A DNA stretch of 31,516 bases from IMG/VR virus record IMGVR_UViG_3300042287_000166, positions 1-31,516 of that record; one strand, 5' to 3'. The notes below the pieces were generated by a model, which saw only the letters and a program-made list of their open reading frames with translations, had not been told where the DNA came from and made no database searches. This document shows positions 2,763 through 19,253 of the stretch, one piece after another. The DNA is from a virus. The position numbers were made by a program, and so were the translations under genes. The stretch's first letter is position 1; each line of letters starts with the position of its first letter.

Positions 2763-2807
2763 ACATAACTAAAAAACACAAATTTAATGTTTAATATTAT
2801 TATATAT

Positions 2808-2853
2808 TATGACAATTCTATGACAATTAAATACAATATTACTTTTACATTTG
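2808..2853 (+). promoter_or_regulatory. Promoter A: tandem TATGACAAT boxes and TAnnTTTG
   Basis: TATGACAAT occurs at 2808-2816 and 2819-2827, 11 bp apart, followed by exactly 18 bp and TACATTTG at 2846-2853, a match to the Bacteroidota -7 consensus TAnnTTTG. Transcription would begin shortly before the ATG at 2877. The same box pair and the same 18-bp spacer occur at 13363-13408 and 23054-23099 on the other strand, which is strong internal evidence for function. Confidence 0.75.
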
Positions 2854-2876: not shown

Positions 2877-2996
2877 ATGGAAATTTTAGCTTTTATCTTT
2901 TGCGCAATACCTATTTTATTTGTACTTTTGTTCGCAACGGCAGTTCACTATTTTATGGAAACACTTAAAAAACACGACAATGAGAAATCTATTTGA
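2877..2996 (+). CDS. 39-residue single-span membrane peptide
   Basis: ATG at 2877 is the first start after promoter A, and the frame ends in TGA at 2994. Residues about 3-26 are strongly hydrophobic (ILAFIFCAIPILFVLLFATAV) and are followed by a charged tail, METLKKHDNEKSI, so a single membrane span is likely. It overlaps the start of the next gene (ATG at 2980) by 17 bases. Nothing identifies its function. Position as first gene of a separately controlled operon would suit a membrane-acting early or exclusion peptide, but that is speculation. Confidence 0.6.
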   Translation: MEILAFIFCAIPILFVLLFATAVHYFMETLKKHDNEKSI

Positions 2997-3198
2997 AAGA
3001 CTAAAACCCGAGCATATTGAAAAGCTCAAAGAAGCACAAACTTTATACCCAGCGACAATTCCAAACTTATTTTTGGAATTAGAGTTAAATACTTTTTGGG
3101 CAGACTTGACTTATTCTTGCGTATTTACTTTGGTAAGTTATTTAGACCTTTACGATTATTCACCTTGTGCAATAGAAAACTTATTTGATAATGACTAA
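2980..3198 (+). CDS. Hypothetical 72-residue protein, plus-strand operon
   Basis: The product begins MRNLFERLKPEHIEKLKEAQ and continues as a helical, mildly acidic protein with an aromatic middle (FWADLTYSCVFTLVSYLDLYDY). The ATG at 2980 is preferred over upstream non-ATG starts because it lies inside the tail of the 39-residue gene, as is usual for coupled genes. It ends 8 bases into the next gene (ATG at 3191). No family recognised. It is one of only three genes on the plus strand. Confidence 0.65.
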   Translation: MRNLFERLKPEHIEKLKEAQTLYPATIPNLFLELELNTFWADLTYSCVFTLVSYLDLYDYSPCAIENLFDND

Positions 3199-3472
3199 GC
3201 TAATCGACAAAATAGAAAAGATTTACCTAGATAAATTTTATGCACTACCAGAGTGCGAAATGAAAACTAAAGCTTTACACGCTTTAAATAATGAAACAAG
3301 TTTTGGGTGGTTAGGTGGCGATATAGCCGACTACCTTGAAGATAATTTACTAAGTGAAGAAGAACACCCTTTTATTTTAGACTTGCTTAAAACGTACGAC
3401 AATCGTTCTAGTGGCTCAAGTCTTTGCAATGGTGAAGGTGGTATAAACATAAAAAGTGGGTGGGGTTTATAA
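3191..3472 (+). CDS. Hypothetical 93-residue protein, last gene of plus-strand operon
   Basis: The start is ATG at 3191 (MTKLIDKIEKIYLDKFY), overlapping the end of the previous gene; an in-frame TTG two codons earlier is less likely. The product is a small helical protein with an acidic middle (ADYLEDNLLSEEEHPF) and a Gly/Ser-rich tail. The tail codons for SGWGL run into the stem of the terminator hairpin at 3457-3482, so stop codon and terminator overlap. No family recognised; the tight overlaps with its neighbours support a shared job. Confidence 0.65.
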   Translation: MTKLIDKIEKIYLDKFYALPECEMKTKALHALNNETSFGWLGGDIADYLEDNLLSEEEHPFILDLLKTYDNRSSGSSLCNGEGGINIKSGWGL

Positions 3473-3490: not shown

Positions 3491-4003
3491 TTAATCTATT
3501 AATGCAGCAATAATTGAAGAAGTAACTTCAGGCGAAAGAGCTTTCTCTTGACCACTAAATGTTAATTCGTAACCTGAACGGTCACCAGTTGCAACACCAG
3601 AGGCAGCAGTTCCAGCGGTGATGTCTAATCCACCCGCTTGACCTAGCATCCAATACTTACCGTTCTTATCTTCAGCAATAGCGATAAGGCTATTTTGAGC
3701 TAATAAAAGAATTTCATTTCTAGTGTTAGCTTGAAGCTTGTTAAGAATTACGGTCAATTCCTGAGCGTAAAAGATTGTCCCGTTTTGAACGGAAGCAGTT
3801 ATCGTTTCAGTAAAAGAAGATGTTTCTTTAATCAAATTATACTTATAGAAAAACTTTCCAACCGCTAAGCTAATGGCAGTAACAACACCAGCAACTTCAG
3901 TTGTACTAACTACATTATTTTGCTCTATAAATAAAACTGATTTTAAACCTCCTAGAGAATCTTTACAGTCTAAAACGTAACCTTGGGTTAAGGCACATGA
4001 CAT
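3491..4003 (-). CDS. Probable major tail (tube) protein
   Basis: 170 residues from an ATG at 4003. The sequence shows alternating beta-strand patterns and phrases such as SCALTQGYVLDCKDSLGG at the N-terminus, SVQNGTIFYAQEL in the middle and DRSGYELTFSGQEKALS near the end. This is the look of a conserved single-domain structural protein found next to capsid genes in Bacteroidota phages, where a tail-tube role is usual. It lies just behind the major capsid gene, with its own terminators on both sides, as expected for a product needed in many copies. The tube assignment rests on context and general appearance. It could instead be another abundant virion protein. Confidence 0.55.
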   Translation of the reverse strand: MSCALTQGYVLDCKDSLGGLKSVLFIEQNNVVSTTEVAGVVTAISLAVGKFFYKYNLIKETSSFTETITASVQNGTIFYAQELTVILNKLQANTRNEILLLAQNSLIAIAEDKNGKYWMLGQAGGLDITAGTAASGVATGDRSGYELTFSGQEKALSPEVTSSIIAALID

Positions 4004-4016
4004 ATATTTGAGTATT

Positions 4017-4047
4017 AAAAAAGGGTAGGCAGTTTATCCACCTACCC
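4017..4047 (-). terminator. Intrinsic terminator after the major capsid gene
   Basis: On the minus strand GGGTAGG (from 4041-4047) pairs with CCTACCC (from 4023-4029) across an 11-base loop and is followed by six T (A at 4017-4022). It sits 25 bp after the capsid stop codon and just before the start of the next gene, so it probably reduces rather than fully blocks downstream transcription. Confidence 0.8.
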
Positions 4048-4072
4048 TCTTTGGTTAAAAATTAATTGTTAA

Positions 4073-5026
4073 TTAAGCAACTCCACCTTCTTGCCAGTAC
4101 ACGATTTCAGTTGGGAAAGCATATTGAACTCCCATTTTGAATTCAGCAACGAAACGCATTTCGTCAGCTTCTTTCGCATAGAACAATTCAAATCTTTCTT
4201 CCTCGTTCAACAAATCTACACCTAAGTAAAGGTTTGACATACGAGTGGCGATAAGCTTATCAGTTCCGTTCAAACCATTTACAGCAATTAGCTTTACGCT
4301 AGTTCCCGGTATAACGATTTCAAAGTCAACTGATTCAGCAGCGTAATGGAAAAGATTTGCAGCCTTTAATGCAACTGTGTACATTCTGAAAGCATCCATT
4401 CCAGCGAAGATAATTACATCACCATTTGAAACAATGTCAGCAGGTATCAAAGTGTAAACTTCATCAACAGCAGCGATAATAGTGCTTGTAGACAATGCAG
4501 CTACGTTACCCGGATTTCCGTCAATAACACCCGCAACTGGAACACCAGCAGGAGCGATAAGCTTCAATAGTCCATCAAACTTGTTTAATTGTGCGTTACC
4601 TGAACCAGTATCACCTTGCCACAACCCAACTTCTAGAGCCTCACCGATTACAGCGATTTTCTTAGCGGTGTACTCGTCAGCAAATGGCATATAATCGTAC
4701 ATTGAACCAGCACGTAAAGCCTTTTGTGTGTACTTAGCCTCGAAAGACTTAGGACAAATAGACTCATTTACTTTAATCTTACCGGGAGTTAATGCTCTTT
4801 GTGTGAAAGCAGTCGTACCGCTTGAAGAAAATCCACAAGTTCCACCTGCTTGGAATACAGCATCGGTTTCCATAAGGTTAATTTTTTCAGACGACTTGAT
4901 GCCGACCTGTACGTTTCCAGCTGCTTCGATTAATTTAGCAGTCTTTGGCGCGAATACTAGAGATGTAGCAAGTTGTTGCTCGTTCTCTTTTACATAATTG
5001 GTTAAACCAGTTAAATCTAAAGCCAT
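4073..5026 (-). CDS. Major capsid protein, HK97-fold type
   Basis: 317 residues from ATG at 5026, a normal size for a HK97-fold capsid subunit. The sequence is Ala/Gly-rich and balanced in charge, with a middle section (KKIAVIGEALEVGLWQGD then STSTIIAAVDEVYTLIPADI) that fits a capsid A-domain/P-domain layout, and an acidic, aromatic C-terminus (FKMGVQYAFPTEIVYWQEGG). Evidence from context is strong: the scaffold-like gene lies 5 bp upstream, the protease before that, and a terminator directly follows. I identify it from pattern and neighbourhood, not from a single catalytic motif. N-terminal processing by the neighbouring protease is possible. Confidence 0.75.
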   Translation of the reverse strand: MALDLTGLTNYVKENEQQLATSLVFAPKTAKLIEAAGNVQVGIKSSEKINLMETDAVFQAGGTCGFSSSGTTAFTQRALTPGKIKVNESICPKSFEAKYTQKALRAGSMYDYMPFADEYTAKKIAVIGEALEVGLWQGDTGSGNAQLNKFDGLLKLIAPAGVPVAGVIDGNPGNVAALSTSTIIAAVDEVYTLIPADIVSNGDVIIFAGMDAFRMYTVALKAANLFHYAAESVDFEIVIPGTSVKLIAVNGLNGTDKLIATRMSNLYLGVDLLNEEERFELFYAKEADEMRFVAEFKMGVQYAFPTEIVYWQEGGVA

Positions 5027-5031
5027 GTTTT

Positions 5032-5601
5032 TTAATTTTTAATTGTTTGAAAAATGTTTTGTAATTTTTTAAAGCTATCCGATTTTACGTTTTTGCTTTG
5101 TGCAAGAAATGTATTTTTCGGTGCTTGTGTTTCTGGAGCGGATTCGATTGTCGCAAAAGCTTCCATGAATTCAATTAGCTTTTTAGTAACCTCATTCAAT
5201 GAACTTACTTTTGTTTCAATCTCGGACATCTTAGAATTGAATGAATCGCTAATCTCAAGAAATTTAGCATCGTAATTAAATGCTTCCTCTTTGCTTTGCT
5301 CAACCTCAACCTCAACAGATACCTCTTCCTCTTCTACCATTTTAACTTCGGCAATTACGCCTGGCTCGGATACGATTACTATCGTTCCATCTTCTAGCTC
5401 GTGCTCACCAACTGGTGCTGGAATTTCTCCTTCTTCTGTAACCACTGAAATTAAACCGCCAACTTCTAACTTGTCGAACTTAACGATTGTGCCATCGGCT
5501 AGAACGCCTTCAGCAAATTCAGTTACCACTTCTGGAGTATTCACAACCTCGTCGGAAAACAGTAAGCTTTTGATTTGTTCTAATGCTTCTTTTGCTTTCA
5601 T
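5032..5601 (-). CDS. Scaffold-like capsid assembly protein
   Basis: 189 residues from ATG at 5601. The middle is very acidic (EVKMVEEEEVSVEVEVEQSKEE, about 105-127) and is followed by a coiled-coil-like stretch (about 133-170), then a basic C-terminus with many Lys. A repeated phrase, LADGTIVKFDKLEVGG and LEDGTIVIVSEPG, points to a small barrel-like element between residues 30 and 100. High charge, helices, a basic tail that could dock on capsid subunits, and a position between protease and major capsid gene all suit a scaffolding protein. The exact family is not recognised. A decoration or protease-inhibitor function is less likely. Confidence 0.6.
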   Translation of the reverse strand: MKAKEALEQIKSLLFSDEVVNTPEVVTEFAEGVLADGTIVKFDKLEVGGLISVVTEEGEIPAPVGEHELEDGTIVIVSEPGVIAEVKMVEEEEVSVEVEVEQSKEEAFNYDAKFLEISDSFNSKMSEIETKVSSLNEVTKKLIEFMEAFATIESAPETQAPKNTFLAQSKNVKSDSFKKLQNIFQTIKN

Positions 5602-5650
5602 ACTTTTTGATTAATAATTATAATATATATGTTAATTGATTTTATGCAAC

Positions 5651-6238
5651 TTAAATCTCAGCGATTCGCAATATCTCTTTTATCTTTTCAAGCATTATAT
5701 CTTCTTTCTTTACAATGTCTGAATAGCCAAAAATACCTTCTACGCTAAAGCCTTGAAATTCGCCTGACTTTACTTTTGCCCAAATGTCCGCGTTATCTAC
5801 TTTGTAACTACCAAACCAAGAACCATCCTTTGCATCTTCAAATCCTTTGATAGGCATTTTACCCATCTCTTTGTTTACTAACCATGATTCAAACATCGTC
5901 ACGCCTTGCACCGCCTTATCTGGATTGTGCATCTCGTTTACATTTGATTGATAACCACGCTTAAAGAATTTTTCTGCTATTTGCTGAATAGTTCCTGAAT
6001 CGAAAACTACGTAATGTTCGCCAAATTCTTCATTATTTCTATAAATTGGAACGTCTGCTAACATCAATGCACCAGATAATATTTGTTTATCTTCGCTTAT
6101 GACTTCAAACTTTAAACGCTCATTGAACGCTAAGAAGTTTTTTTGAATAGCGGGTCTATCAACTAGCGCGATGTAGTCTACTTCGCTATCGTCGGACATA
6201 TCCGAATTGATAATAAGTTTGTAAATTGGTAAGTCCAT
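5651..6238 (-). CDS. Prohead protease, XkdF/S78-2-like
   Basis: 195 residues from ATG at 6238. The start DLPIYKLIINSDMSDDSEVDYIALVDRPAIQKNFLAF is the typical opening of XkdF-like phage serine proteases, with the VDRPAI phrase. H106 (NEMHNPD), then WFGSYKV and GEFQGFSVEGIF (Ser in the last phrase) fit the catalytic His and Ser of the HK97/S78-type fold. Function: cutting of scaffold and capsid N-termini during head maturation. It sits between the tape measure and the scaffold, upstream of the capsid gene. Family assignment is by sequence pattern; catalytic residues are proposed, not proven. Confidence 0.7.
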   Translation of the reverse strand: MDLPIYKLIINSDMSDDSEVDYIALVDRPAIQKNFLAFNERLKFEVISEDKQILSGALMLADVPIYRNNEEFGEHYVVFDSGTIQQIAEKFFKRGYQSNVNEMHNPDKAVQGVTMFESWLVNKEMGKMPIKGFEDAKDGSWFGSYKVDNADIWAKVKSGEFQGFSVEGIFGYSDIVKKEDIMLEKIKEILRIAEI

Positions 6239-6251
6239 ATCTTTAAATATA

Positions 6252-8030
6252 TTAAATTGTTGCAGCTGCCTTTATTTTGTTAATTCTATCTTGACTATCT
6301 GTGATGTCTGTTTCAACAACAAAAGCTTTTATAGCTTGTTGATTTTGTAATGTTACATTATTTCCCCCCGGAGTTAATGCCGTTTGTTGTACATTAATAC
6401 CCGCTTGAATAGGTGCAACCGAAGCAGAAGATGAAGCGTTAAAGCTAGGAGTGCCACCGCTGTTTGGTCGTGAAACACCACCACCACCACCACCGCCTTT
6501 CACTTTTGATAATATAGAACGTGCCTTATTAGCTGCTGCCAATACCGCTCCGACTTGAGTAGCATAAAATACTGGAAATGCAAACGCTGCTGCTGGTCCT
6601 GTGGCTTTTGCTGATTCTTGAGCTATTCGTAAACCATTTGCAAAACCAACTCCAGTCTGAATTGCAATCTCGGCTAATCCCGCTGCCTTTGATGCTGCCG
6701 TACCTTCGCCAAACAAAGAACTTAATTGACCAAATACGGATGCCGTAGCTTGTAAGAAAGCTTGTTGTGCAACTAGCCTAGCTTCATAAGCTTTTTTATC
6801 TTCTTCTGTTTCTGTATCTCTGTCTTTTCTTCTTCTTTCAGCTACAAGATTTGCGCGTAATATTTCCGTTTCGCCCCTTGCTTCTTCTTTTTCTAATCTT
6901 AGCTGTTTGTCCGCGTCATCTATTTCCGTTAAGTCTGCAATTATTGAAGCTTCTAAATCTCTTTCGGCTTCAGCGGCAACCTTTTTAGCGTTGCTTTCAT
7001 CTTGTAATTTCTTTACAAAGTCGGCAAACTCTTTTTCTTTACGTGCTTTCTCGGCTGCAATCTCGGCTATTTCTTTATCTCTTGCCGTTTTTCTATCCGC
7101 TTCGCGTTTTTCACCTTCTGCCTTTAGTCTTACCGTTTCTTCAGCTTCAATTATTTTCTTTTGATTTTTTAAATCTTCAAAGTTTTTTAAATCTTCACCT
7201 CTTAATCCCTTTTCTGCTTTGTACTTTGAACGTAAAGTATTTAAATCATTTTCGGCTAATTGCTTTGATAGCTTTGCTATTTCCTTTTCTTGACCACCTT
7301 GAGCGCTTAGTAAATCAATACGCCTTTGTATTGCTTCGTTAGCTGTTTTATTACTCCCTGCTAATTTATCATAAGCACGTGATGCTTCGCTAGTTGCACC
7401 AACAAAATCGGTTACCTGCTCAACTAGTTTACCGATAAATTCACCAACTTTCGCAAGTCCCGGAATGAAATTTAAAACTACTTTTTTAACCGCATCAAAA
7501 TTAGCTATTAATAAACCAATAGCCACAACAGCTGCACCTATTCCAGTAGCTATAATTGCACCCTTTAAGGTAGTGAATGCTGTTATTACATTCTTTTTAA
7601 TTACAACCGCTAAGTTAGTGAAGGCATCCTTTGATTCTAAAACACTATTTAAGCCTTCAGATAATGCCAAAGCACTTTGCACCTTTAGTAATTGCTTTTC
7701 AAGTTCCGCGCTTTCAGTACCGAATAAACCAATAGCACCCTGAACACCTGCAAAACCACCCGCCACACCTTGCAAAGTTTGTGAAAACGCTTTGAATTTA
7801 GCATCTGGATTTAAGGCATCAACTCTATCTTTGAAATCCCCGACTTCATCCCTTAGATTTGCAACCTTTTGTTGTGCTTCGATTGCTTCTTTCGACGTAT
7901 CGCCAAACTTCCTAGATAGATTTAAGGCTTCCTGTGTCGCTTCCCTTAATTCGGTTTTTATAGACTTAACAGCCTTTTCGGTTTGGCTTGTGTCGGTTGT
8001 TATTTTAAACGCTACTTCTTCGGTTGCCAT
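6252..8030 (-). CDS. Tail tape-measure protein
   Basis: 592 residues from ATG at 8030. The N-terminus (VAFKITTDTSQTEKAVKSIKTELREATQEA) is the standard opening of tape measures in Bacteroidota phages, followed by coiled coil. A hydrophobic segment lies at about 150-195 (GAIIATGIGAAVVAIGLLIA), and a long Glu/Lys/Arg/Ala-rich helix at about 280-420. A Gly run of seven near residue 520 precedes a Ser/Asn-rich tail. It would set tail length and occupy the tail lumen. For a tape measure it is rather short, implying a short tail. Unusually it lies downstream of the two large distal tail genes rather than upstream of them. Confidence 0.75.
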   Translation of the reverse strand: MATEEVAFKITTDTSQTEKAVKSIKTELREATQEALNLSRKFGDTSKEAIEAQQKVANLRDEVGDFKDRVDALNPDAKFKAFSQTLQGVAGGFAGVQGAIGLFGTESAELEKQLLKVQSALALSEGLNSVLESKDAFTNLAVVIKKNVITAFTTLKGAIIATGIGAAVVAIGLLIANFDAVKKVVLNFIPGLAKVGEFIGKLVEQVTDFVGATSEASRAYDKLAGSNKTANEAIQRRIDLLSAQGGQEKEIAKLSKQLAENDLNTLRSKYKAEKGLRGEDLKNFEDLKNQKKIIEAEETVRLKAEGEKREADRKTARDKEIAEIAAEKARKEKEFADFVKKLQDESNAKKVAAEAERDLEASIIADLTEIDDADKQLRLEKEEARGETEILRANLVAERRRKDRDTETEEDKKAYEARLVAQQAFLQATASVFGQLSSLFGEGTAASKAAGLAEIAIQTGVGFANGLRIAQESAKATGPAAAFAFPVFYATQVGAVLAAANKARSILSKVKGGGGGGGVSRPNSGGTPSFNASSSASVAPIQAGINVQQTALTPGGNNVTLQNQQAIKAFVVETDITDSQDRINKIKAAATI

Positions 8031-10082
8031 CTATATCTTTTTTAATAATTCTACTTTTGTTAAACTATCCCCTAAAGGATTATACCCATCTATCTTATTT
8101 AGGTAATATAAACCGTTTTGCACTTTGATAGGTTTCTTAAAATCCAAGTCCATAATATCGATAGTATTCAATAAGAAATATAAAGTAATTAGTTTAGCGT
8201 CTTTATTGTCTTGAGCTTCGATAAATTCTTGATAGTATTTAACGAATAAGTTATACGCGGGATAAAAAGCGGTTTGAAAATAAATCTCTTTAGGTGCTTC
8301 AAAAGTCAAGTCGTATAATTCGGTCGTTGTGCTATCAATTAAATAATTGTAGATATGACCGAAATAAGGATATTGCACGTTTGTCCCATCTAGCAAAGTG
8401 TCACCATTGTATATTTCAAAGTTGGTGCAATCTTGTAACCCTCCATAAAATACTAACTTTGGATTAGTTTTAACTTTCTTATACGTGCCATCTGTATTTA
8501 TGTCAAACATCGCAGGTAGTGCCATATCGGTATTGATAAACACGTTAGGAACTAAAGAGAAAATCAATTCAAATGCTTTGTCATCTTTGCTAAACTCGTT
8601 TTGTGTCGTATAGGTTTTATTTCCGTATGCGCTATTATATTTATTAAAGTATAACTTTGAATAATAGTCGTTATCATTCTTGTATTTAAAGCTCAATGTC
8701 TTAGGTAGAAAATCGTTTGAAGATTTAATTGTAAAGCCTTTAGACAAATCCTTCTTATTATCCCAATCGATTACATTGTCATTGTAAAAGTCTGGATAAG
8801 GTATAAACGTGAGTTTAAATTCGTCGTCTTTATCTTGAATGACATATAAGTTTAAAAGGTTAATTATTGACTTCAAGAAATCAGCTTGTTTAATTGCAGT
8901 TGGAACAAATGATTTGCCTTCAAATTGCTTCCCATAAATTGCAGGTACTTTTGCTGAATTATCAAAGTTGGTAATTACTAGATTAGAAGATAATTGAATG
9001 TTTAAAATAGTTGTACTTAAAGCGTCACCTATCTTTGCCCTAAATTCATTCGCTGCGCCCGGTCGTAATACAAAAGTAAATTCGTAATTGAAAGAACCTA
9101 TGCCACCAGAGATAGGATATTCCGAGTAATTCTCAACGCCGGTGAATAAGTCAATCATACCAATAGACATATTTTCCGGTGCAAAGGTATCACGCTCCCA
9201 AACTATCATGCCTGTAAACTTTGCCTTTATTTCAGAAGCTGAATTGTTTACAATGTAGTAATTACCTAAGCCATCGTCTGCGAAATTAAAATAACTAGGT
9301 ACTAAACTTCCGGGGTCTAATTGCAAAGACCGATATAAATTATTGACTTCTTGCGTTTCTAAATCCGCGCTACCTAATGCCGAAATGTAGACCGTGAAAT
9401 CTTCCTCATTATTTAATAGCGTTATCTTATCTAAATTATTAGTATCCCATAACGTAGTATTATAAGTATATCCTGCTTCGCTCATTATCTTGTCGAATAT
9501 TTCACGACAAAACAAAGTAGGTCTAAAATTAGTTACATCTAATTTGCTAGGTGTTGCATCTTTGAACTTACCGTAATTCGCTAAAGCATAAACGTAATCG
9601 TCACGCGACCAACTAGCTTCTATATTTGTTAAGTTATAAACTTGATTGAACTCGCTTAGGTTTAAGTCAGTCAATAGCTTGTCACCTACTGCACTAAAGA
9701 GGTTGTTTAACGAACCGAATAGAGCGCACTCATATATTAGCTCACCGTTCAAATATTTTATCTCTAAGAGCCTTAAAACGCCTACAAATATTTCGATATT
9801 ATCAAGCGTTACTTTTGTAAATGCTTTCTTTAAAGGGTTAAAATTTACACCGATATTGGTTTCTAAACTCGAATAAGGATTCTCGATATTGAAATCAAAG
9901 TAACTACCGAATAAAAAGTTATTATGCGCAGTACCCGGAATGTAAATAGTCTTTGAAAATGTCGTTGTTCGTTTCTCAAAATCCTCAATATCGACAATCG
10001 AATAAGTGAAATCTATATCTACGTTTTTATCCAAGTCTAATGCAACGCCCTCCAAATATATCTGTGTCCTTTGCGTAGCCAT
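8031..10082 (-). CDS. Large tail-tip / tail-associated structural protein
   Basis: 683 residues; ATG at 10082 shares bases with the TAA of the gene before it (TAATG). It starts MATQRTQIYLEGVALDLDKN and has phrases such as SKTIYIPGTAHNNFLFG that recur in Bacteroidota phage baseplate proteins. It is rich in Asn, Asp, Tyr and Phe, with beta-strand alternation throughout, and has no signal peptide or clear enzymatic motif. It is flanked by another large beta-rich tail protein and the tape measure, so a hub or tail-tip role (Tal-like) is the best inference. Its stop at 8031 directly abuts the tape-measure ATG. Confidence 0.6.
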   Translation of the reverse strand: MATQRTQIYLEGVALDLDKNVDIDFTYSIVDIEDFEKRTTTFSKTIYIPGTAHNNFLFGSYFDFNIENPYSSLETNIGVNFNPLKKAFTKVTLDNIEIFVGVLRLLEIKYLNGELIYECALFGSLNNLFSAVGDKLLTDLNLSEFNQVYNLTNIEASWSRDDYVYALANYGKFKDATPSKLDVTNFRPTLFCREIFDKIMSEAGYTYNTTLWDTNNLDKITLLNNEEDFTVYISALGSADLETQEVNNLYRSLQLDPGSLVPSYFNFADDGLGNYYIVNNSASEIKAKFTGMIVWERDTFAPENMSIGMIDLFTGVENYSEYPISGGIGSFNYEFTFVLRPGAANEFRAKIGDALSTTILNIQLSSNLVITNFDNSAKVPAIYGKQFEGKSFVPTAIKQADFLKSIINLLNLYVIQDKDDEFKLTFIPYPDFYNDNVIDWDNKKDLSKGFTIKSSNDFLPKTLSFKYKNDNDYYSKLYFNKYNSAYGNKTYTTQNEFSKDDKAFELIFSLVPNVFINTDMALPAMFDINTDGTYKKVKTNPKLVFYGGLQDCTNFEIYNGDTLLDGTNVQYPYFGHIYNYLIDSTTTELYDLTFEAPKEIYFQTAFYPAYNLFVKYYQEFIEAQDNKDAKLITLYFLLNTIDIMDLDFKKPIKVQNGLYYLNKIDGYNPLGDSLTKVELLKKI

Positions 10083-11323
10083 TATTTTGTAAGTTTAATA
10101 TTATCGTAAGAATATTGAAGCTCTATTTGCACGTTTTGCAATCCATCTACTCGTTGTATTTTAGGCTCGTAGGTAGTCGATTTAATTGTCGCAGGTATAT
10201 AATAGGTAACTCCGTTTATCTTTTCTTCTACGTACAAAGAATGCGCTTTAATAAGTTCCCAAAACCATTCATGCTCTGCATCGTTTAGCAAATCAGAATT
10301 TAAGACTACGCCCTCTGTGTAATTAGTGAAATAGTTTTGATTTGATAAGTTAAACATGTTATTTACATGCTGACTATAACCTGTCGGAGTAAAGTTATAA
10401 GGGTAGTTCTGAATACTCTTTCTTTCAATGTCGTATCGTTTACGTTTCACCATATTAAAAGTATAACTATCAAACCCACCAAGACTGTTCTGCCAGTACA
10501 CATTTGTTTTTGCGTACTTAGAACAGTAGTCATCAAAGGTGAATTTGAATGTTTCACTAACAGCGATATCGTCTGCATCTAATAAAGTAATTTCACACGC
10601 GGTCACAAAAGGATTAATCAAATATCCGCCTACCGTTTCCCAAGTCGAAGCCACCGTTTCCCACGCTTCCGAAACATCTTCCCAATAAACGAAATCAGCA
10701 CCGAATGATTCACGACTAATCGCAATAATACCTGCCAAAGCTGAAAGGTCTGGAATATCAAACTCATAAACACCCGTAGGAATTAAAGCGTTACTTTCAT
10801 ATAACTTTAAAAGTATCTTTGTCGCTGGTGAATCCCCATCAATATAGCTCAAAAAGTTTGTTCTTTCAAAGTCTGTACTTAAAACACGTGGCGAACTTGT
10901 TAAAAACTTTGTAGTTGTGTTGGTAGTTGTGAATTGTGTTTGATTAAATTGCACAAAATCGGTGAAAGAAACTTGACCATTAAAGGCATAGCGCACAGTA
11001 TCATTATAAGAAGTTCCACCGATAGTTTCCACGCACTTAATCTGATAGTTCACGTAATAACTTAAATCGTTTAGAGGCTTCCAAAACACGTCAAACTCGA
11101 AAAACATCTGGTCGTTCTTTGTAAACGATAGTAAGAATTGTTTAACGTCACAATAAGCAAAGTTCCCATCATTGACAACTAATTTAACACGCCCGACTAT
11201 TGTGGATTGCACCCATATCTCAAGGAATAAAAAATCTATGTCGCTATTCGTTTGCACGTAATAAATCATATCATTATTTATCGGTGTCCAAAGCTGTGGT
11301 GTTTGTATGTAGGTTATTGCCAT
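10082..11323 (-). CDS. Distal tail structural protein (Dit-like position)
   Basis: 413 residues from ATG at 11323. The sequence is beta-rich and aromatic (MIYYVQTNSDIDFLFLEIWV near the start; YSYDNIKLTK at the end). A short internal repeat is seen near residues 219-235: YWEDVSEAW, ETVASTW, ETVGG, with Trp residues at 8-residue steps. No enzymatic motif is visible. It sits between the gp10-like gene and the 683-residue tail protein and is joined to the latter by a TAATG overlap. By position it would be the distal tail or baseplate hub component, but the sequence alone does not prove which. Confidence 0.55.
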   Translation of the reverse strand: MAITYIQTPQLWTPINNDMIYYVQTNSDIDFLFLEIWVQSTIVGRVKLVVNDGNFAYCDVKQFLLSFTKNDQMFFEFDVFWKPLNDLSYYVNYQIKCVETIGGTSYNDTVRYAFNGQVSFTDFVQFNQTQFTTTNTTTKFLTSSPRVLSTDFERTNFLSYIDGDSPATKILLKLYESNALIPTGVYEFDIPDLSALAGIIAISRESFGADFVYWEDVSEAWETVASTWETVGGYLINPFVTACEITLLDADDIAVSETFKFTFDDYCSKYAKTNVYWQNSLGGFDSYTFNMVKRKRYDIERKSIQNYPYNFTPTGYSQHVNNMFNLSNQNYFTNYTEGVVLNSDLLNDAEHEWFWELIKAHSLYVEEKINGVTYYIPATIKSTTYEPKIQRVDGLQNVQIELQYSYDNIKLTK

Positions 11324-11324
11324 G

Positions 11325-11984
11325 TTATTTATTTTTATACTTTTCTGCTAATGGATTAAACACCATTATATTATTTCTTATATCTCTTTTTAATGCACCT
11401 GATAATTCTTTGTAAAAGTTCTTTTCAACTGACTTAATAGCATTCGTTAAAAAATAAGTCGGAGGCGTTCCTTTTTTCCCTATGCTTGAAGCTATCTTGT
11501 AAGCTGTCATATCTAAAATTGAAACTTTCTTTTTACCTGAAAGTACTTTCTTTTTTGATTTGCTAATTAAAGTACCGTCACGCTTATAACCATTTTTAGT
11601 AGTTCCCCCATCGTCAAGTCTTAATTGCTTATCTCTTATCCATTTTTTAATATTCTCAATCGGTGGTCTTTTGCTGTTAGGTCTACGCCCTTGGTCTACT
11701 ATCTCGAAGTAATCAAGCATAGTGACCTCGATTGAATAAACCCCGCCCATGAATTTAACAGGTGAAATCTTGATACTTTCTTCTAAGTCACCAGAAGCAT
11801 TCGAACCGCTAGGACTATTTTTTTTAGGTTTGTTTAAATTCTTTGCAGCACGTGACGCAATTAAACCAGCGTATTTAAAAAGGATAAGCTCAAGTTCAGG
11901 AAGTGCCACCTCATTTTTACCCAATATCTTGAAGTCACCTTTGCCACCCCCTAAATTTGCATAAAAACTTTCGTCATCTACCAT
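11325..11984 (-). CDS. HK97 gp10-like tail completion protein
   Basis: 219 residues from ATG at 11984. The pattern LILFKYAGLIASRAAKNL, then DLEESIKISPVKF and later DYFEIVDQGRRPNS matches the HK97 gp10 group, in which a phrase ending in the form YAxxVExG follows a central beta sheet. The rest is basic (KKKVLSGKKK) and ends in a helical region. These proteins act at the head-tail or tail-end junction. Here it lies two bases after the frameshift product and before the distal tail genes. The gp10 call is moderate because I am relying on the central motif and size. Confidence 0.6.
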   Translation of the reverse strand: MVDDESFYANLGGGKGDFKILGKNEVALPELELILFKYAGLIASRAAKNLNKPKKNSPSGSNASGDLEESIKISPVKFMGGVYSIEVTMLDYFEIVDQGRRPNSKRPPIENIKKWIRDKQLRLDDGGTTKNGYKRDGTLISKSKKKVLSGKKKVSILDMTAYKIASSIGKKGTPPTYFLTNAIKSVEKNFYKELSGALKRDIRNNIMVFNPLAEKYKNK

Positions 11985-11985
11985 A

Positions 11986-12264
11986 TTATTTCCTTAACTT
12001 TTCTAATTGCCTACGTTCATTTGCATTCTTATCTTTTAAATACGCCAATGAATTTAACGCCTGTATTATATTTAATTTCCACACCTCATTTAATGCTACT
12101 CGTTCAAACTTTGCGATAAGTTCGGCATTGTAAACCCACCCCCACCGTTTTTCAAAGGTTTCAGAATCGCTCTCAATTTCTCCTTCGTCACTCGTTTGCT
12201 CTTCAAAACCTCCTTGACCGAATAAACCCCTATAACCTTTATTAAGGCGCTTATAAGTTTCAAA
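11986..12264 (-). CDS. Tail assembly chaperone, -1 frame extension (GT-type)
   Basis: This frame is open from 12288 to 11986 but contains no ATG at all; its only possible start is a TTG at 12288. It therefore looks like the downstream half of a -1 frameshift product. After slipping on the T10 run the ribosome would read TTT GAA ACT and add 92 residues, ending KRWGWVYNAELIAKFERV then a helical, basic tail (ANERRQLEKLRK). Joined to codons 1-165 of the overlapping gene this gives about 257 residues. The KRWGW phrase and helical tail look like a genuine protein domain. Alternatively, one base is miscounted in the homopolymer and the two frames are a single ordinary gene. Confidence 0.65.
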   Translation of the reverse strand, partial: FETYKRLNKGYRGLFGQGGFEEQTSDEGEIESDSETFEKRWGWVYNAELIAKFERVALNEVWKLNIIQALNSLAYLKDKNANERRQLEKLRK

Positions 12265-12758
12265 AAAAAAACGCTTGTATGATAGCAATTTGCAAAGTTA
12301 GACTTTAGCATATCGCTTGATACCTTGCTATGCTCAACGCTACCATAAGGCATTACACTTTCTTTGCCATACCAATTAATTTTAACAGGCATTGACAATG
12401 AAGCCATAATTAAGTGCAAGTTTTCAACCATTGCATTCTCACCTGCTAAAAAAGTTGTGATGTCTACATATTGACCATAAGTCAATTTAAAAGCATCTAA
12501 AGACATTACATATTTGGTATCGTTTACTTTCACATACTTTTGAAGCTTACCTTCAATCGTTCCCTTATGTAAAAAATCCAAACTAGGTTTTAAATCTTTG
12601 AACTTATCCAAAGGCATATTATCTAATTCATCTTCTGAAATTTCATTAATTATTGAAATCAATTTAACTTCCTTTTCAAAGTCATTCATGTTAGCATCGT
12701 TTATGATACCATAAATAAGCTGATAATCTTCTATTGTAATTGTATTCCAGTTCTTCAT
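12096..12758 (-). CDS. Tail assembly chaperone, upstream frame (G-type)
   Basis: 220 residues from ATG at 12758, opening MKNWNTITIEDYQLIYGI, a pattern seen at the start of small helical proteins just upstream of tail genes. Residues 1-165 read as a mixed alpha/beta domain. At codons 163-166 (GTT TTT TTT TTG) the frame crosses a run of ten T. Beyond it the zero frame stays open for 54 more codons (KLISALIKVIGVY... GGGGFTMPN). In siphoviruses the gene upstream of the tape measure commonly yields a short G product and a longer frameshifted GT product that chaperone tail-tube assembly on the tape measure; this pair fits that scheme. Confidence 0.65.
   Translation of the reverse strand: MKNWNTITIEDYQLIYGIINDANMNDFEKEVKLISIINEISEDELDNMPLDKFKDLKPSLDFLHKGTIEGKLQKYVKVNDTKYVMSLDAFKLTYGQYVDITTFLAGENAMVENLHLIMASLSMPVKINWYGKESVMPYGSVEHSKVSSDMLKSNFANCYHTSVFFLKLISALIKVIGVYSVKEVLKSKRVTKEKLRAILKPLKNGGGGFTMPNLSQSLNE
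12261..12272 (-). promoter_or_regulatory. T10 slippery site for -1 frameshifting or slippage
   Basis: On the minus strand the sequence is G, ten T, G (complement of 12261-12272). In the zero frame it reads GTT TTT TTT TTG; a -1 shift gives TTT GAA and enters the downstream frame. A homopolymer this long can support ribosomal -1 slippage or RNA polymerase slippage, and is also a place where sequencing errs. Confidence 0.65.
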
Positions 12759-12792
12759 TATTGTTTAAATATAATGTAAATAAAAAAAAGAC

Positions 12793-13002
12793 TTACCGAG
12801 TAGGCAAATCTTTAAAGTCATTAGGGTCGTTATCTTTTCTGAACTTTCGCCAATCTGGTGATATGGTAATTAAACCACCTTCGTCTATGTATTCCTTTAG
12901 ATATTGTTTAAATGCTTCAGGGTCATTCTTTGCTATTTCCTTTATAGCTATTATCTGACCGCTAGGCATTGAATCAAAAAACTCAAAAGCTTTATCTTTC
13001 AT
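12793..13002 (-). CDS. Hypothetical 69-residue protein
   Basis: Starts with ATG at 13002 (MKDKAFEFFDSMPSGQ). Helical first half (IIAIKEIAKNDPEAFKQYLKEYIDEG) followed by a short strand and a polar, basic end. The helix-turn-helix-strand order faintly resembles a winged-helix DNA-binding unit but is too short to claim. It is the third gene after promoter B, ahead of the tail chaperone; 34 bp separate its stop from that gene's start. No family recognised. Confidence 0.6.
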   Translation of the reverse strand: MKDKAFEFFDSMPSGQIIAIKEIAKNDPEAFKQYLKEYIDEGGLITISPDWRKFRKDNDPNDFKDLPTR

Positions 13003-13011
13003 ATCTAATAT

Positions 13012-13155
13012 TTATTTCTTTAGCCATATAAATAAAATTAAATCACAATATTTTTTATCCTTACAAATATCTGTTTGCGTAATTTCACTAATATAATAAG
13101 CCATATCGCTAAGGCTCATTATTTCAAATTCTTCTTTTGTTTTTTTAGTTACCAT
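13012..13155 (-). CDS. Hypothetical 47-residue protein
   Basis: ATG at 13155 lies inside the end of the preceding 65-residue gene (11-base overlap), and TAA is at 13012. The product MVTKKTKEEFEIMSLSDMAY continues as a mostly helical small protein with Cys31, Cys37 and a hydrophobic, basic tail (LILFIWLKK). The overlap upstream and the 9-bp gap to the next gene support a real gene in the operon. Function unknown. Confidence 0.5.
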   Translation of the reverse strand: MVTKKTKEEFEIMSLSDMAYYISEITQTDICKDKKYCDLILFIWLKK

Positions 13156-13342
13156 ATCCTTCAGGAGTTACATCTGTTATAGATGCTGAAAAGTTTGGTT
13201 TTAAATTCCACTTAGGCGCAACCATTTGTACTTTTATTTCCGATTCTAATTCTTTAATTCTTGCTTCATATCTTGCAGTAACTTTTGCAGATTCTTCATT
13301 TGTAAATTTTTGAAACTCTAATAATATCTCTTCGTTTGTCAT
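13145..13342 (-). CDS. Hypothetical 65-residue coiled-coil protein, first after promoter B
   Basis: ATG at 13342. The first 40 residues are a charged helix with heptad-like spacing (MTNEEILLEFQKFTNEES, then ARYEARIKELESEIKV), followed by a short non-helical tail ending GYGN. It is the first gene of the structural transcription unit; promoter B ends 21 bp upstream. No catalytic or binding motif is visible and no family is recognised. A small virion, scaffold or regulatory role cannot be told apart from sequence. Confidence 0.65.
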   Translation of the reverse strand: MTNEEILLEFQKFTNEESAKVTARYEARIKELESEIKVQMVAPKWNLKPNFSASITDVTPEGYGN

Positions 13343-13362: not shown

Positions 13363-13408
13363 CAAAGATAATACAAAGAACCTATTCGATTGTCATAGAA
13401 TTGTCATA
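13363..13408 (-). promoter_or_regulatory. Promoter B: tandem TATGACAAT boxes and TAnnTTTG
   Basis: On the minus strand TATGACAAT lies at 13408-13400 and again at 13397-13389, 11 bp apart, followed by exactly 18 bp and TATCTTTG at 13370-13363. This matches promoters A and C in box sequence, box spacing and spacer length. It lies in the gap right after terL and points into the structural genes, so it is probably the late or structural promoter. Confidence 0.75.
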
Positions 13409-13419
13409 AAGTAAATTAT

Positions 13420-14589
13420 TTAAATCAAAGCATATTGCCCAAGTGTACGCCCTTGAATAAATCCGCGCCACGCTAAGGCTAAAGAACAAACCGCGTCATC
13501 GTGCATCCCTTGAGGTGCTGAATACTTTACACCAGTTTTGCTATACACATATTCAAATAAACTTAATTCATCTACGATAGAACCCTCTGGGTATTTAATC
13601 AAGCCTTGCTGAATCGCTATGACTAAACCCTCGATTAATTGCTGTTTTGAAGTGCTTGTAAATTTAAACCCTTCAATCATATAGTCATCACGTTGCAAGT
13701 CTTCTACTATCGGGTCACCAACGCCGGTGGCATCAATTACCTTTGGCACGTTTGCTAGTTGTTTTATCTTATTCTTAGTAGTATTCCAATCAGCTTGAAA
13801 ACGGTCGTAATGACATACACAACCATTACCGTCAAGACCGATAATAACAGTATAATCGTAAGACTTAGCCAAATCAATGCCGTAGCAAATGGGAACGGCA
13901 CTCGATATTTGCGTAATGTTTTGACGAATAAAGTCCATACCAAACGGATTAGCTGCATTCTCCATTGGATTCGCAAGATATTCCTGCTCAAAGACCGCCG
14001 AAGGTAACGAAGCACGAGCATCGTCAATTTCTTGATTATTAATAAATGGATTGTCATAAGTAGTATATTTGAATGATTCAAAATCTTTGTCACCATTACG
14101 CAAATAAAGGCGATAGAAGAAGTCTTTACCTCGCGGAGTAGATATGAATAAGGCGCGACCTTGATAATCGGTAAGCGTTGGTCTTATAGCGTTATTCCAA
14201 GCATCTTCTAAGTGTGGTATATAACAAGCTTCATCTATAATAACATTGTGAAACTTAAGACCACGCAAGTTATCTAATCGCTCACCTGTAAAGAATCTAA
14301 TCTCACCACCCGTGACGAACTTAAAAACCAAATCTGACTTATTAGCGGTTGCGACTTCGTTCGGGATTAGTTTTGCTATTTCATCAAAGAAAACTTTAGC
14401 AAGTGAATACGTCGGAGTTATATAAGCATTGATATTACCTGCAAGTGATTCCGTAATAGTGTACTGTTTACTTATCAAAGATTTGCCCCAACGACGACCA
14501 CACATCAAAACTCTAAAACGTGCCTTTGATTCTAATACGCTACGCTGTCCCTCGTGTGGTTTAGGAAGCTGTATTGCTATCGTCTGCAT
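13420..14589 (-). CDS. terL: Terminase large subunit
   Basis: 389 residues from ATG at 14589, at the short end for TerL. The ATPase half has Walker A CGRRWGKS (30-37) and Walker B VIIDEA (116-121) with the catalytic Glu at 120; ITPTYSLAKVFFDE follows Walker A. The C-terminal RNase H-like nuclease starts at YGIDLAKSYDYT (about 235) and ends with HDDAVCSLALAWRG (363-376), supplying the conserved Asp residues. It packages DNA into proheads through the portal and cuts concatemers. Its start overlaps the terS end by 29 bases. The portal gene, normally next, is instead at 27023-28984. Confidence 0.95.
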   Translation of the reverse strand: MQTIAIQLPKPHEGQRSVLESKARFRVLMCGRRWGKSLISKQYTITESLAGNINAYITPTYSLAKVFFDEIAKLIPNEVATANKSDLVFKFVTGGEIRFFTGERLDNLRGLKFHNVIIDEACYIPHLEDAWNNAIRPTLTDYQGRALFISTPRGKDFFYRLYLRNGDKDFESFKYTTYDNPFINNQEIDDARASLPSAVFEQEYLANPMENAANPFGMDFIRQNITQISSAVPICYGIDLAKSYDYTVIIGLDGNGCVCHYDRFQADWNTTKNKIKQLANVPKVIDATGVGDPIVEDLQRDDYMIEGFKFTSTSKQQLIEGLVIAIQQGLIKYPEGSIVDELSLFEYVYSKTGVKYSAPQGMHDDAVCSLALAWRGFIQGRTLGQYALI

Positions 14590-14938
14590 CTTTATATGTT
14601 ACTTCTATTTTAAACCCGCCAGAAGCGTTTAAATCCATTTGTTCTTTAGGCTTACCATATACACGAGTTAATAAAGTTTCGATTGAATATAAAGAACCTT
14701 TTTCTATTGACTTTCGTATCGCTCCCGCGATTGTCTTTTCTAAAACTGTGGCTTGTGGATTTATATAAACCTCTTTCAGTTCTTCAATAGTCATAGACAT
14801 TAAAACCTGAATTGCATCGTTTACCTCGCTTACCTTGTAGCCTTGTTCACGTAATTCTGATACGTACTTTCTAGGTCTACCAGTCGGATTAGCAACCGCG
14901 CCTTTTTTAAATTGTGTTTCTTTATTTGGAAATGCCAT
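14561..14938 (-). CDS. terS: Terminase small subunit-like protein
   Basis: 125 residues from ATG at 14938. The N-terminus KKGAVANPTGRPRKYVSEL is the GNPxGRP-type opening (DUF5681-like) common in small terminase-type proteins, followed by helical segments (EVNDAIQVLMSMTIEELKEV; AIRKSIEKGSLYSIETLLTRVYGKPKE). It would recognise phage DNA and feed it to TerL. The 29-base overlap with terL and lack of another candidate support the call. No clear separate HTH can be proven by eye. Confidence 0.8.
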   Translation of the reverse strand: MAFPNKETQFKKGAVANPTGRPRKYVSELREQGYKVSEVNDAIQVLMSMTIEELKEVYINPQATVLEKTIAGAIRKSIEKGSLYSIETLLTRVYGKPKEQMDLNASGGFKIEVTYKDADDSNTAS

Positions 14939-14953
14939 ACACCTATTTTATAC

Positions 14954-15160
14954 CTATTTTTTATTTATATCACCGTTAAATATATCCTTTAAGCTATCAT
15001 AAATATAACTTGATTGTTTACCCCAAAAGAACTCACATTCGTCTTCAATATATGGAGGGTCTACAAAGTAGCTTTGATATTCACATGGTATCGCTGTGTA
15101 ACGATAACACTCATTTTTTAAAGGGCAATCTTCACCCTTGCACATTGATATGTCTGGCAT
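14954..15160 (-). CDS. Cys-rich 68-residue protein
   Basis: ATG at 15160 (MPDISMCKGEDCPLKNECYR). Cysteines at 7, 12, 18, 26 and 42, with aromatic residues between (CEYQSYFVDPPYIEDECEFFWGK), suggest a small metal-binding or disulfide-stabilised fold. The CxxxxCPLKxxCYRY phrase recurs in short proteins near terminase genes of Bacteroidota phages. Which metal or partner it binds is unknown. It lies 15 bp before terS and 1 bp after a micro-gene for a membrane peptide. Confidence 0.65.
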   Translation of the reverse strand: MPDISMCKGEDCPLKNECYRYTAIPCEYQSYFVDPPYIEDECEFFWGKQSSYIYDSLKDIFNGDINKK

Positions 15161-15161
15161 C

Positions 15162-15260
15162 TTATAAATAGTTAATTATTCCTATAATTTCTGTTATTAA
15201 ATAATAAAGCATTAACCCAATAAATGAAACGTATAAAACGAGTTCAATTACCTTTTCCAT
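15162..15260 (-). CDS. 32-residue single-span membrane peptide
   Basis: ATG at 15260 lies inside the end of the HNH gene (17-base overlap), and the stop ends one base before the next gene's start. The product starts MEKVIELVLYVSFIGLML and is hydrophobic nearly to its end (YYLITEIIGIINYL), so one transmembrane helix is likely. Tight packing on both sides is the main support. No function can be read; it resembles in style the 39-residue peptide at 2877-2996 but not in sequence. Confidence 0.5.
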   Translation of the reverse strand: MEKVIELVLYVSFIGLMLYYLITEIIGIINYL

Positions 15261-15516
15261 ATAATCTTTGTTGAATTAATAAATTGTGAATATCTTGTAA
15301 ATATTCTTTATGTTGTTTCTTATCTCCAAACTCGATATGACAATCACGACATAAAGCTTGTAAGTTATCGATATGGTCTGCAAGTTTAGAGCCACCCATT
15401 CCACGCGCTTCGATATGATGAATATCTACCGATTGTTTGCCACAAACTTCGCAAGAAATAAAGCTAGATATATCGTAACCAAAGTACGTTAAATATAATT
15501 TAGTATGTTTTTTCAA
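15244..15516 (-). CDS. HNH endonuclease
   Basis: 90 residues. The only available start is TTG at 15516, because the frame is closed by TAA a few codons upstream and the next ATG is deep in the domain. CEVC (Cys22, Cys25) and CRDCH (Cys56, Cys59) form the zinc-binding pairs; DIHHIEARGMGG (31-42) gives the catalytic HH, and DHIDNLQALC supplies the conserved Asn. HNH proteins near terminase genes often assist DNA cleavage during packaging, which is the favoured role here. It overlaps the methyltransferase gene by 17 bases. Confidence 0.85.
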   Translation of the reverse strand: MKKHTKLYLTYFGYDISSFISCEVCGKQSVDIHHIEARGMGGSKLADHIDNLQALCRDCHIEFGDKKQHKEYLQDIHNLLIQQRLYGKGN

Positions 15517-16594
15517 ATGCTTTTCCGTTTAATTTAATTTCAATATTTGGGTCTAATGCTATCATCCTATTTACTATTACATCGCAGTATTTAGGGTCTA
15601 ATTCCATTCCGTAGCATTTTCTTTTAAGTTGGTGTGATGCTAACATTGTAGTTCCAGAACCTAAGAATAAATCTAAAATTGAATTTGACTTTTTAGCTAT
15701 TTCATCTATAATTTGAACTACTAAAGTTATTGGCTTTGGTGTAGGATGATTTCCTTGTTCTTTTCTATTATTTTCTCCTCCAACATTATTTACTGAAAAA
15801 ACTTTTTGTTCGTGTCTTGTTTTATCATTGTGATAACAATACATAGTTTCAAAATGTCCTGCTTGCCAACCATTTGTTTTATGCCATATATGTTTTGATG
15901 TTACTTGTTCCAAAAATGGTGGAAACTCTAAATTATCCCAAAACCATATCATTAAATTATCACAAAATAATCTTGAATTATTAAATGCACCATCTATATT
16001 TTTTATCATATCGTGCATTATTTCGCTATTATTTGGGAATGGCGGGTCTGTAAATACCATATCCGCTTTACTTCCATTCATTAGCTTTGCCACTTGGTCG
16101 CTATCTGTACTATCCCCACAAAGCAAACGATGCTCACCTATCTCATATAAATCACCTAAAACAGTAATCGGTTCTAATGGTGGCGTAGTATCAAAATCAT
16201 CTTCTTCAGCTTCTAAATCTTCAATCGTTTCAAATATTGGTAAATCTAAACCCCACTCTTTTAATTCTTCTTCATCGTATTGGTTTGCTATCATATCCCA
16301 GTCCCATTCACCAAAGCCTACATTATCCTTAATAATAAACTCGGACTGCTGTGCTTCACTTAAATTACTAGCCTTGATAATATACACCTCTTTAAGTCCT
16401 GCTTCCTTACAAGCCTTTAATCTCATGTTACCGCCAAGAGTGACCATATCGTTATTAACTACAATCGGTCTTAACTGTAACATTTCTGGGAATTCATTTA
16501 TAGACTTAACAAGCTTTTTAAACTTATCGTCTTTAATTAATCTCGGATTGTTTGGATTAGCTTTTACTTCTCCTATTTTTACTTTTTCAATCAT
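15500..16594 (-). CDS. ParB-domain DNA methyltransferase fusion
   Basis: 364 residues from ATG at 16594. Residues 1-115 are a ParB/sulfiredoxin-like domain (EVKANPNNPRLI at 9-20; VTLGGNMRLKACKEAG at 51-66). Residues 145-355 form an amino-methyltransferase with DPPF (183-186, motif IV) before LDLFLGSGTT (307-316, SAM-binding motif I), the order of the beta class. HPTPKP (283-288) is also typical. It probably methylates adenine N6 (or cytosine N4) in phage DNA, protecting it from host restriction. No matching restriction enzyme is evident. The HNH gene next door could be a partner but is more likely packaging-related. ATGA overlap with the gene before it. Confidence 0.9.
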   Translation of the reverse strand: MIEKVKIGEVKANPNNPRLIKDDKFKKLVKSINEFPEMLQLRPIVVNNDMVTLGGNMRLKACKEAGLKEVYIIKASNLSEAQQSEFIIKDNVGFGEWDWDMIANQYDEEELKEWGLDLPIFETIEDLEAEEDDFDTTPPLEPITVLGDLYEIGEHRLLCGDSTDSDQVAKLMNGSKADMVFTDPPFPNNSEIMHDMIKNIDGAFNNSRLFCDNLMIWFWDNLEFPPFLEQVTSKHIWHKTNGWQAGHFETMYCYHNDKTRHEQKVFSVNNVGGENNRKEQGNHPTPKPITLVVQIIDEIAKKSNSILDLFLGSGTTMLASHQLKRKCYGMELDPKYCDVIVNRMIALDPNIEIKLNGKAFEKTY

Positions 16595-16758
16595 AACCTA
16601 TCAAGCAAATTATCTATTTTGTTTATAACCTTTATCTTCATTGGTATTGAATTACCTAGCAAATCAATGTCATCTAGTTGCGCGAGTATTTCAAGCATAA
16701 CCATTATCTTATCTAAGTTCTGATTCGTTTCCCTCTCGATTTCGATTTTATTAGACAT
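16591..16758 (-). CDS. Hypothetical 55-residue protein
   Basis: The start chosen is ATG at 16758, within a TAATG junction with the preceding micro-gene; a longer version from a non-ATG start at 16797 would overlap that gene fully. The product (MSNKIEIERETNQNLDKIMV) is helical and acidic, ending DNLLDRL. Its TGA overlaps the ATG of the methyltransferase (ATGA), so translation is likely coupled. Function unknown. Confidence 0.55.
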   Translation of the reverse strand: MSNKIEIERETNQNLDKIMVMLEILAQLDDIDLLGNSIPMKIKVINKIDNLLDRL

Positions 16759-16883
16759 TATTTCTTTTTTGATTCTTTTATTATAATAGCTTCCCAAGCT
16801 TTTTGAGCTTTCTCTTTAGTATCGTAAATACAAGCACCTTGTCCGATACGATATTTTCCGTTTAAACATTGAGTTACTGGCAT
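16758..16883 (-). CDS. Hypothetical 41-residue protein
   Basis: ATG at 16883 shares bases with the TAA of the upstream gene (TAATG), and its own TAA at 16758 shares bases with the next ATG. The product starts MPVTQCLNGKYRIGQGACIY, continues DTKEKAQKAWEAIIIKES and ends in Lys residues. The strand-strand-helix look and the CLNGKYRIGQG phrase fit a compact small domain seen repeatedly in phages of this host group. Function unknown. It is shorter than most gene callers accept but the double overlap argues it is real. Confidence 0.6.
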   Translation of the reverse strand: MPVTQCLNGKYRIGQGACIYDTKEKAQKAWEAIIIKESKKK

Positions 16884-17239
16884 TACTTTCTTGATTTACG
16901 ACCACGCCTTTTTGGCACTTGCTTATTTACATCTTCAGGCTTAAAGTCATTCACAAACGTAGCTTCTACATTAGTAGTGCTTTGTATTGATTCCGCAAAC
17001 ACTTCAATAGGTTCGGTGTAGCTATCGTAATTAACGCTTAGATATATTCTTTGAATCATTTCCGCAACGCATGACATACACCATTTATTCACAAAGAATT
17101 TGTCATCAACTTCCTGCTTGTAAATAGCTTCAAGCTCTAAGATAGTAACCTCGTTTAAGTTCTTGATAAACCCAGCATCTCGTAATGAAACCCAATGCTC
17201 TTTATATTTATCAAGTGTTTTTTTTGTAAGATAGTTCAT
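16883..17239 (-). CDS. Hypothetical 118-residue protein with basic tail
   Basis: ATG at 17239. The first 85 residues are helical and contain two cysteines in CMSCVAEMIQRIY (about 54-66) after KEHWVSLRDAGFIKNL near the start. The C-terminus is strongly basic, KRRGRKSRK, which could contact nucleic acid. The gene is joined to the membrane-protein gene upstream by an ATGA-type overlap and to the 41-residue gene by TAATG. No family with known function is recognised. Confidence 0.65.
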   Translation of the reverse strand: MNYLTKKTLDKYKEHWVSLRDAGFIKNLNEVTILELEAIYKQEVDDKFFVNKWCMSCVAEMIQRIYLSVNYDSYTEPIEVFAESIQSTTNVEATFVNDFKPEDVNKQVPKRRGRKSRK

Positions 17240-18455: not shown

Positions 18456-18457
18456 AA

Positions 18458-19038: not shown

Positions 19039-19253
19039 TATATTTTTTCAATTATTTGTTTAACATCTTGCCAATATTTATAAGCCCCACTTTCAGAATC
19101 ATAATGATATTGATATAAAGTATCTAATATTTCATCTATTGAAATTATAATACATTGTTTTGCTTCAAATTTTTCTAAATATTTACCATTTTTATGCTCA
19201 AATAAAAATATATATTTATTTACTAACTCTTTTGCTTTTTCTTTAGGTGTCAT
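19038..19253 (-). CDS. Hypothetical 71-residue protein
   Basis: ATG at 19253 (MTPKEKAKELVNKYIFLF), three bases after the ATPase stop. Small and helical, with KQCIIISIDEILDTLYQY in the middle and YWQDVKQIIEKI at the end. Short proteins with this KAKELVxKY opening and SIDEIL middle are very common in Bacteroidota phages and prophages but have no known role. Translationally linked to the next gene by TAATG. Confidence 0.65.
   Translation of the reverse strand: MTPKEKAKELVNKYIFLFEHKNGKYLEKFEAKQCIIISIDEILDTLYQYHYDSESGAYKYWQDVKQIIEKI

Follow-up and report, generated by a model that had tools for sequence, protein, structure and literature searches.

According to PMC11426443, phosphorylated HemR, a regulator of the OmpR/PhoB-like type, binds the hem-box TGACA[N6]TGACA upstream of hemA in Leptospira. 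The same article presents HemKR as a spirochaete system, a two-component system of Leptospira biflexa (citing Morero et al. 2014, doi 10.1111/mmi.12763), and proposes HemR as an activator of hemA and a repressor of hmuO from a hem-box. No description of HemKR in Bacteroidota was found in the literature searched, and nothing was found on TATGACA in flavobacteria. Leptospira HemKR is switched off by 5-aminolevulinic acid. Use of host two-component regulators by phages is known from cyanophages, in which promoters of pstS and other genes are under host PhoBR control (PMC10976474). In Bacteroidota, sigma-A promoters carry a -33 TTTG and a -7 TAnnTTTG; in Flavobacterium johnsoniae, positions -12 to -5 hold the -7 element, with consensus TAHHTTTG, and transcription starts 4-5 nt beyond (PMC6847099).

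Here, we analysed a stretch of viral DNA of 31,516 nucleotides (hereafter the window) with three tandem-box promoters, termed sites A, B, and C. Their motif is identical to the Leptospira hem-box. In both Leptospira and Bacteroidota, the bacterial sites lie upstream of hemA, and an OmpR/PhoB-type regulator is accompanied by a histidine kinase as its apparent partner; in the window, the motif instead belongs to promoters of phage genes and is separated by 20 bp from a -7 box of the Bacteroidota type. As in the cyanophages, phage genes appear to be wired to a host two-component response regulator of the OmpR/PhoB family. There, however, single auxiliary and replication genes answer to a phosphate signal through degenerate boxes, whereas here three units of one small genome, and also a microvirus, carry near-identical boxes at a fixed spacing for a putative regulator of haem biosynthesis. 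Within the literature searched, novelty lies in the regulator, in the scope, and in how strict the architecture is.

Three tandem-box promoters and their units

The promoters at 2808-2853 (plus strand), 13363-13408 (minus strand), and 23054-23099 (minus strand) all read TATGACAnTTCTATGACAAT-N18-TAnnTTTG. These coordinates and strands, the box pair 11 bp apart, and the exact 18-bp gap before the -7 box had been given in a preliminary description of the window and were confirmed at all three sites. The 11 bp between box starts corresponds to TATGACA-N4-TATGACA, and the first box of site C is TATGACATT. The gap measures 18 bp if counting begins after the 9-mer TATGACAAT and 20 bp if it begins after TATGACA. 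Each site was also said to lie in a gap at the head of a transcription unit; in agreement with this, all three are intergenic, with an ATG 20-24 bp downstream. One element is common to the early, structural, and small rightward units (Table 1), which supports the suggested co-ordination of the three.

Table 1. Promoter elements, transcription units, and selected genes of the window, with the element found in sister phages
Feature	Position	Strand	Remark
Site A tandem box, TATGACA-N4-TATGACA	2808-2825	+	Hem-box core TGACA-N6-TGACA at 2810-2825
Site A -7 element, TACATTTG	2846-2853	+	20 bp downstream of hem-box
Site B tandem box	13391-13408	-	Hem-box core at 13391-13406
Site B -7 element, TATCTTTG	13363-13370	-	
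Site C tandem box	23082-23099	-	Hem-box core at 23082-23097
Site C -7 element, TATATTTG	23054-23061	-	
Rightward small-gene unit, site A	2877-3472	+	ORF 2877-2996 (39-aa hydrophobic protein), ORF 3185-3472
Structural unit, site B	3491-13342	-	From 13145-13342 to 3491-4003; directly after the large terminase gene
Early/replication unit, site C	13420-23029	-	ERF annealing protein, DnaA-domain-IV-like protein, DnaB-like helicase, sigma-like protein, DNA methylase, terminase
Sigma-factor-like protein	17528-18079	-	
DnaA domain IV-like DNA-binding protein	20900-21454	-	
TTGATnATCAnnCAnTTA in place of the hem-box	L301:539-556, L303:2516-2533, L304:3979-3996, L311:2792-2809, L315:4403-4420		Upstream of the orthologous early promoter

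The -7 elements TACATTTG, TATCTTTG, and TATATTTG all fit the consensus TAHHTTTG (PMC6847099), and the earlier assignment to the Bacteroidota -7 box was upheld. The -33 TTTG is absent from the phage sites: the proximal TGACA repeat lies there, and its place is taken by TATGACAAT, so that the -33 area is unusual in the way described before. This absence suggested that the phage promoters depend on an activator. On the F. johnsoniae scale, the proximal TATGACA spans -39 to -33 and the distal one -50 to -44, which puts the centre of the pair near -41.5, the usual position of activators overlapping the promoter upstream element. These features support sites A-C as putative promoters with a Bacteroidota -7 box.

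Comparison with shuffled sequence, in which equal numbers of such sites had been named earlier as a refutation, gave no match to the composite pattern in 100 dinucleotide shuffles against three in the window. For TGACA-N6-TGACA-N20-TAnnTTTG, the mononucleotide expectation was about 4e-5 per window, and 200 simulations under a third-order Markov model contained no match; the mean for TGACA-N6-TGACA alone was 0.045. The whole window holds exactly three exact copies of TGACA-N6-TGACA, namely sites A, B, and C, and TAnnTTTG follows exactly 20 bp on in each.

On the minus strand, TAAATTTG occurs at window 2779-2786, 21 bp from the box pair of site A, which could accordingly serve divergent promoters. 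The diverged relative L064 showed no minus-strand box of this kind at the corresponding position. The two ends of the window, 1-131 and 31386-31516, lie inside the tail-fibre gene and agree over 131 bp except for one mismatch, and L027 seems to bridge them. Taken together, these observations suggest that the genome is complete and closes into a circle, or else that the tail-fibre gene contains a repeat.

The hem-box at bacterial hemA and a candidate regulator

The core of the phage box pair is the published HemR hem-box, exact at all three sites. The element had been taken as phage-specific, a view that was not borne out: across one Bacteroidota order, hemA promoters have this core at an identical distance from the -7 element. 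When 257 Gb of bacterial genomes were scanned, just 22 matches emerged, four of them in Bacteroidota upstream of hemA. As 21 of the 22 were intergenic, chance was dropped as their explanation. The full pattern with at most one mismatch was then sought in 399 genomes of one order, a sample centred on a record titled Flavobacteriales, from whose title the order was named. It yielded 53 matches in 52 genomes, and the reversed control yielded none. At 28 of the 30 loci read among these matches, hemA, the first gene of haem biosynthesis, lay directly downstream. The hemA upstream regions carried an exact TGACA-N6-TGACA in 39 of 43 genomes and a copy with one mismatch in two more. As in the phage sites, the -7 element stands 20 bp downstream of the core, and TTTG was located exactly 24 bp past the second TGACA in 19 of 20 hemA regions measured. 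Searching 395 genomes of the class Bacteroidia returned 31 matches from 27 of them, compared with 0 for the control. Most of these matches belong to hemA, one belongs to hemB, and three lie at a bacilliredoxin-type gene. The hem-box has its haem-gene context in the bacteria (hemA, hemB), whereas the genes that follow it in the phage are the phage's own. Judged by sequence, the phage sites are hem-boxes; judged by gene content, they are not members of a haem regulon.

Three related genomes (L175, L177, and L178) carry hem-box promoters before a bacilliredoxin-type gene (PF06491), possibly a redox link of the haem regulon. In many hemA promoters (L113, L126, and L184-L191), a Fur/PerR-like inverted repeat, e.g., ATTTATAATCATTCTAAAT, lies just upstream of the hem-box; it was not seen at the phage sites. 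The Bacteroidota MAG G005 (L093-L103) contains about ten copies of AATTGTCATAGAATTGTCAT near genes, mostly in the orientation opposite to the hemA and phage element, which looks like another OmpR/PhoB-type regulon.

A candidate regulator is encoded at L233:8765-9472 and consists of a receiver domain (PF00072) and Trans_reg_C (PF00486), the OmpR/PhoB arrangement. The gene order hemA-hemC/D-hemB-hemL-HK-RR-TPR-hemE in L233, L280, L281, and L282 places a histidine kinase and the regulator between hemL and hemE, and HK-RR-TPR-hemE was observed in L279 and L283. In those Flavobacteriales genomes that were inspected, hemA and the gene for the regulator are at separate places. Orthologues in other lineages have a distinctive recognition helix, SRTIDN[FY]ILxFRK. 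Among 60 genomes of the order, a HemR-like regulator was present in 40 of the 43 with hemA versus 6 of the 17 without (p 9e-6, uncorrected for kinship), and the two genomes with a box-less hemA also lacked the regulator. Orthology to Leptospira HemR is presumed from domain type, gene neighbourhood, and co-occurrence. A HemKR system with a hem-box regulon is probable in Bacteroidota.

Possible reading of the sites by a host regulator

We consider it likely that sites A-C are hem-box promoters at which a HemR-like regulator of the host activates the phage units. In the proposed mechanism, this OmpR/PhoB-type protein, partner of a haem-biosynthesis histidine kinase, would become phosphorylated and bind the two direct repeats of TGACA-N6-TGACA near -41.5. 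Once bound, the regulator would substitute for the missing -33 contact and bring the host's sigma-A RNA polymerase to TAnnTTTG. All three units (early, structural, and small rightward) would then start from the activator module of a host-type hemA promoter, in a phage version without the Fur/PerR-like box that adjoins many hemA promoters. We infer that such a regulator is present in the phage's actual host, that it binds the sites, and that it activates rather than represses. No OmpR-type DNA-binding domain is encoded in the window or in the five other phage records tested. On the other hand, published work cautions that not every response-regulator box predicted in a phage is functional (PMC10976474), which counts against reading by a host HemR.

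The sites may alternatively be operators at which HemR or another host factor represses in some haem state, or decoys that titrate HemR. Repression has a precedent in the hem-box from which Leptospira HemR is proposed to repress hmuO (PMC11426443). The spacing to the -7 box, however, is the same as in hemA promoters, and it is hemA that HemR is proposed to activate in Leptospira, according to the same article. The activator dependence suggested by the lack of the -33 TTTG also speaks against repression, and three sites are few for titration. We regard this alternative, which may overlap with the one that follows, as unlikely.

Reading by a host protein other than a HemR-like one, such as another OmpR/PhoB regulator (Bacteroidota PhoB or RprY) or an unrelated protein, appears decidedly improbable. 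In its favour, sites of the OmpR/PhoB family are generally direct repeats about 11 bp apart; each genome has several paralogues of this family, which PDB comparisons of the candidate regulators did not separate, and the reverse complement of the element resembles a Pho box. Nevertheless, the bacterial sites are at hemA, hemB, and bacilliredoxin genes, not at phosphate genes, the linked two-component pair sits in the hem operon, the presence of the regulator tracks that of the box, and the motif is the published HemR site. Host PhoB acting through a Pho box was rejected, as the likeness is on the reverse strand only and the host sites lie at haem genes.

The element across phages

A search of related phages for the box pair with the fixed gap and TAnnTTTG had been suggested, and it was successful. 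An IMG/VR scan allowing 33 spacings detected 64 DNA stretches, in which 51 of 70 matches (window included) had the exact (4,20) spacing; with a refined pattern and five spacings allowed, all 44 matches were at spacing 20. The refined matches comprised the window's own group and a diverged group (L012, L025, L029, L063, and L064). Groups sharing few or no proteins with the window were L008/L014/L024/L036/L040/L065, L197/L198/L200/L202, L199, L052, and L010. At the three orthologous sites of the diverged group, 14 of 14 box bases were kept and the 20-bp spacer was just 35-60% identical. L010 is a complete microvirus of 5,842 bases with a 123-bp end repeat, a Phage_F capsid, and a Rep protein; it carries the hem-box element, and no recognisable regulator was found in it. 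A DNA search of the phage collection gave no near relative of the window. A DUF5675 protein is encoded near the hem-box in both L010 (2421-2795) and the window (23746-24198).

These distributions bear on the possibility that the boxes are recognised by a phage factor, either the sigma-like or the DnaA-domain-IV-like product, which would thereby co-ordinate a regulon of the phage. Both genes are present in the window and in the box-bearing close relatives that cover the region. Sister phages with the same gene order, however, retain the sigma-like protein (64-70% identical, 91% in L301) as well as the DnaA-IV-like protein, and no hem-box promoter within one mismatch was present in the stretches examined. 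The bacterial hemA promoters carry the same element, L010 carries it with neither gene, and TAnnTTTG is already the box of the host sigma-A. A regulon of the sigma-like factor would show the element where the factor is conserved and not elsewhere, and this is not the pattern found. The sigma-like protein, which had been put forward as a reader, was therefore rejected on account of its orthologues in box-less phages and of the microvirus; the DnaA-IV-like protein was rejected likewise, its orthologues also persisting in box-less phages. Reading TTATGACAA as a DnaA box (TTATnCACA) failed, as its 3' half misfits and phages with the DnaA-IV-like gene lack the box. Reading by a phage factor is thus highly improbable. 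Chance repeats in AT-rich intergenic DNA, for which the AT-rich genome and the shortness of the boxes might speak, were ruled out by the shuffles and simulations, none of which gave a match, and the element is conserved among phage relatives.

At the orthologous early promoter, the sister phages keep TATATTTG or TATCTTTG, and a different common element, TTGATnATCAnnCAnTTA, lies about 50 bp upstream; this is possibly a site for a different host factor. The replacement of the hem-box by TTGATnATCAnnCAnTTA indicated that the upstream module changes while the phage genes stay. Tentatively, we propose that several mutually unrelated phages of Bacteroidota, among them tailed phages and a microvirus, may have independently made their main units depend on the haem-biosynthesis two-component system of the host, and that related phages swap the host-factor module at the same promoter. 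If this is true, host tetrapyrrole status would gate the progress of infection. Reading by a host regulator provides a concrete and testable explanation of the way in which certain small Bacteroidota phages begin transcription with no regulator of their own. The element also offers a sequence signature for searching phages that lack known hosts, and the sister phages are a readable example of how promoter modules for different factors are plugged into one gene order.

In the hem-box phage L040, several consecutive short proteins encoded at 6415-9193 resemble DnaA domain IV by eye.
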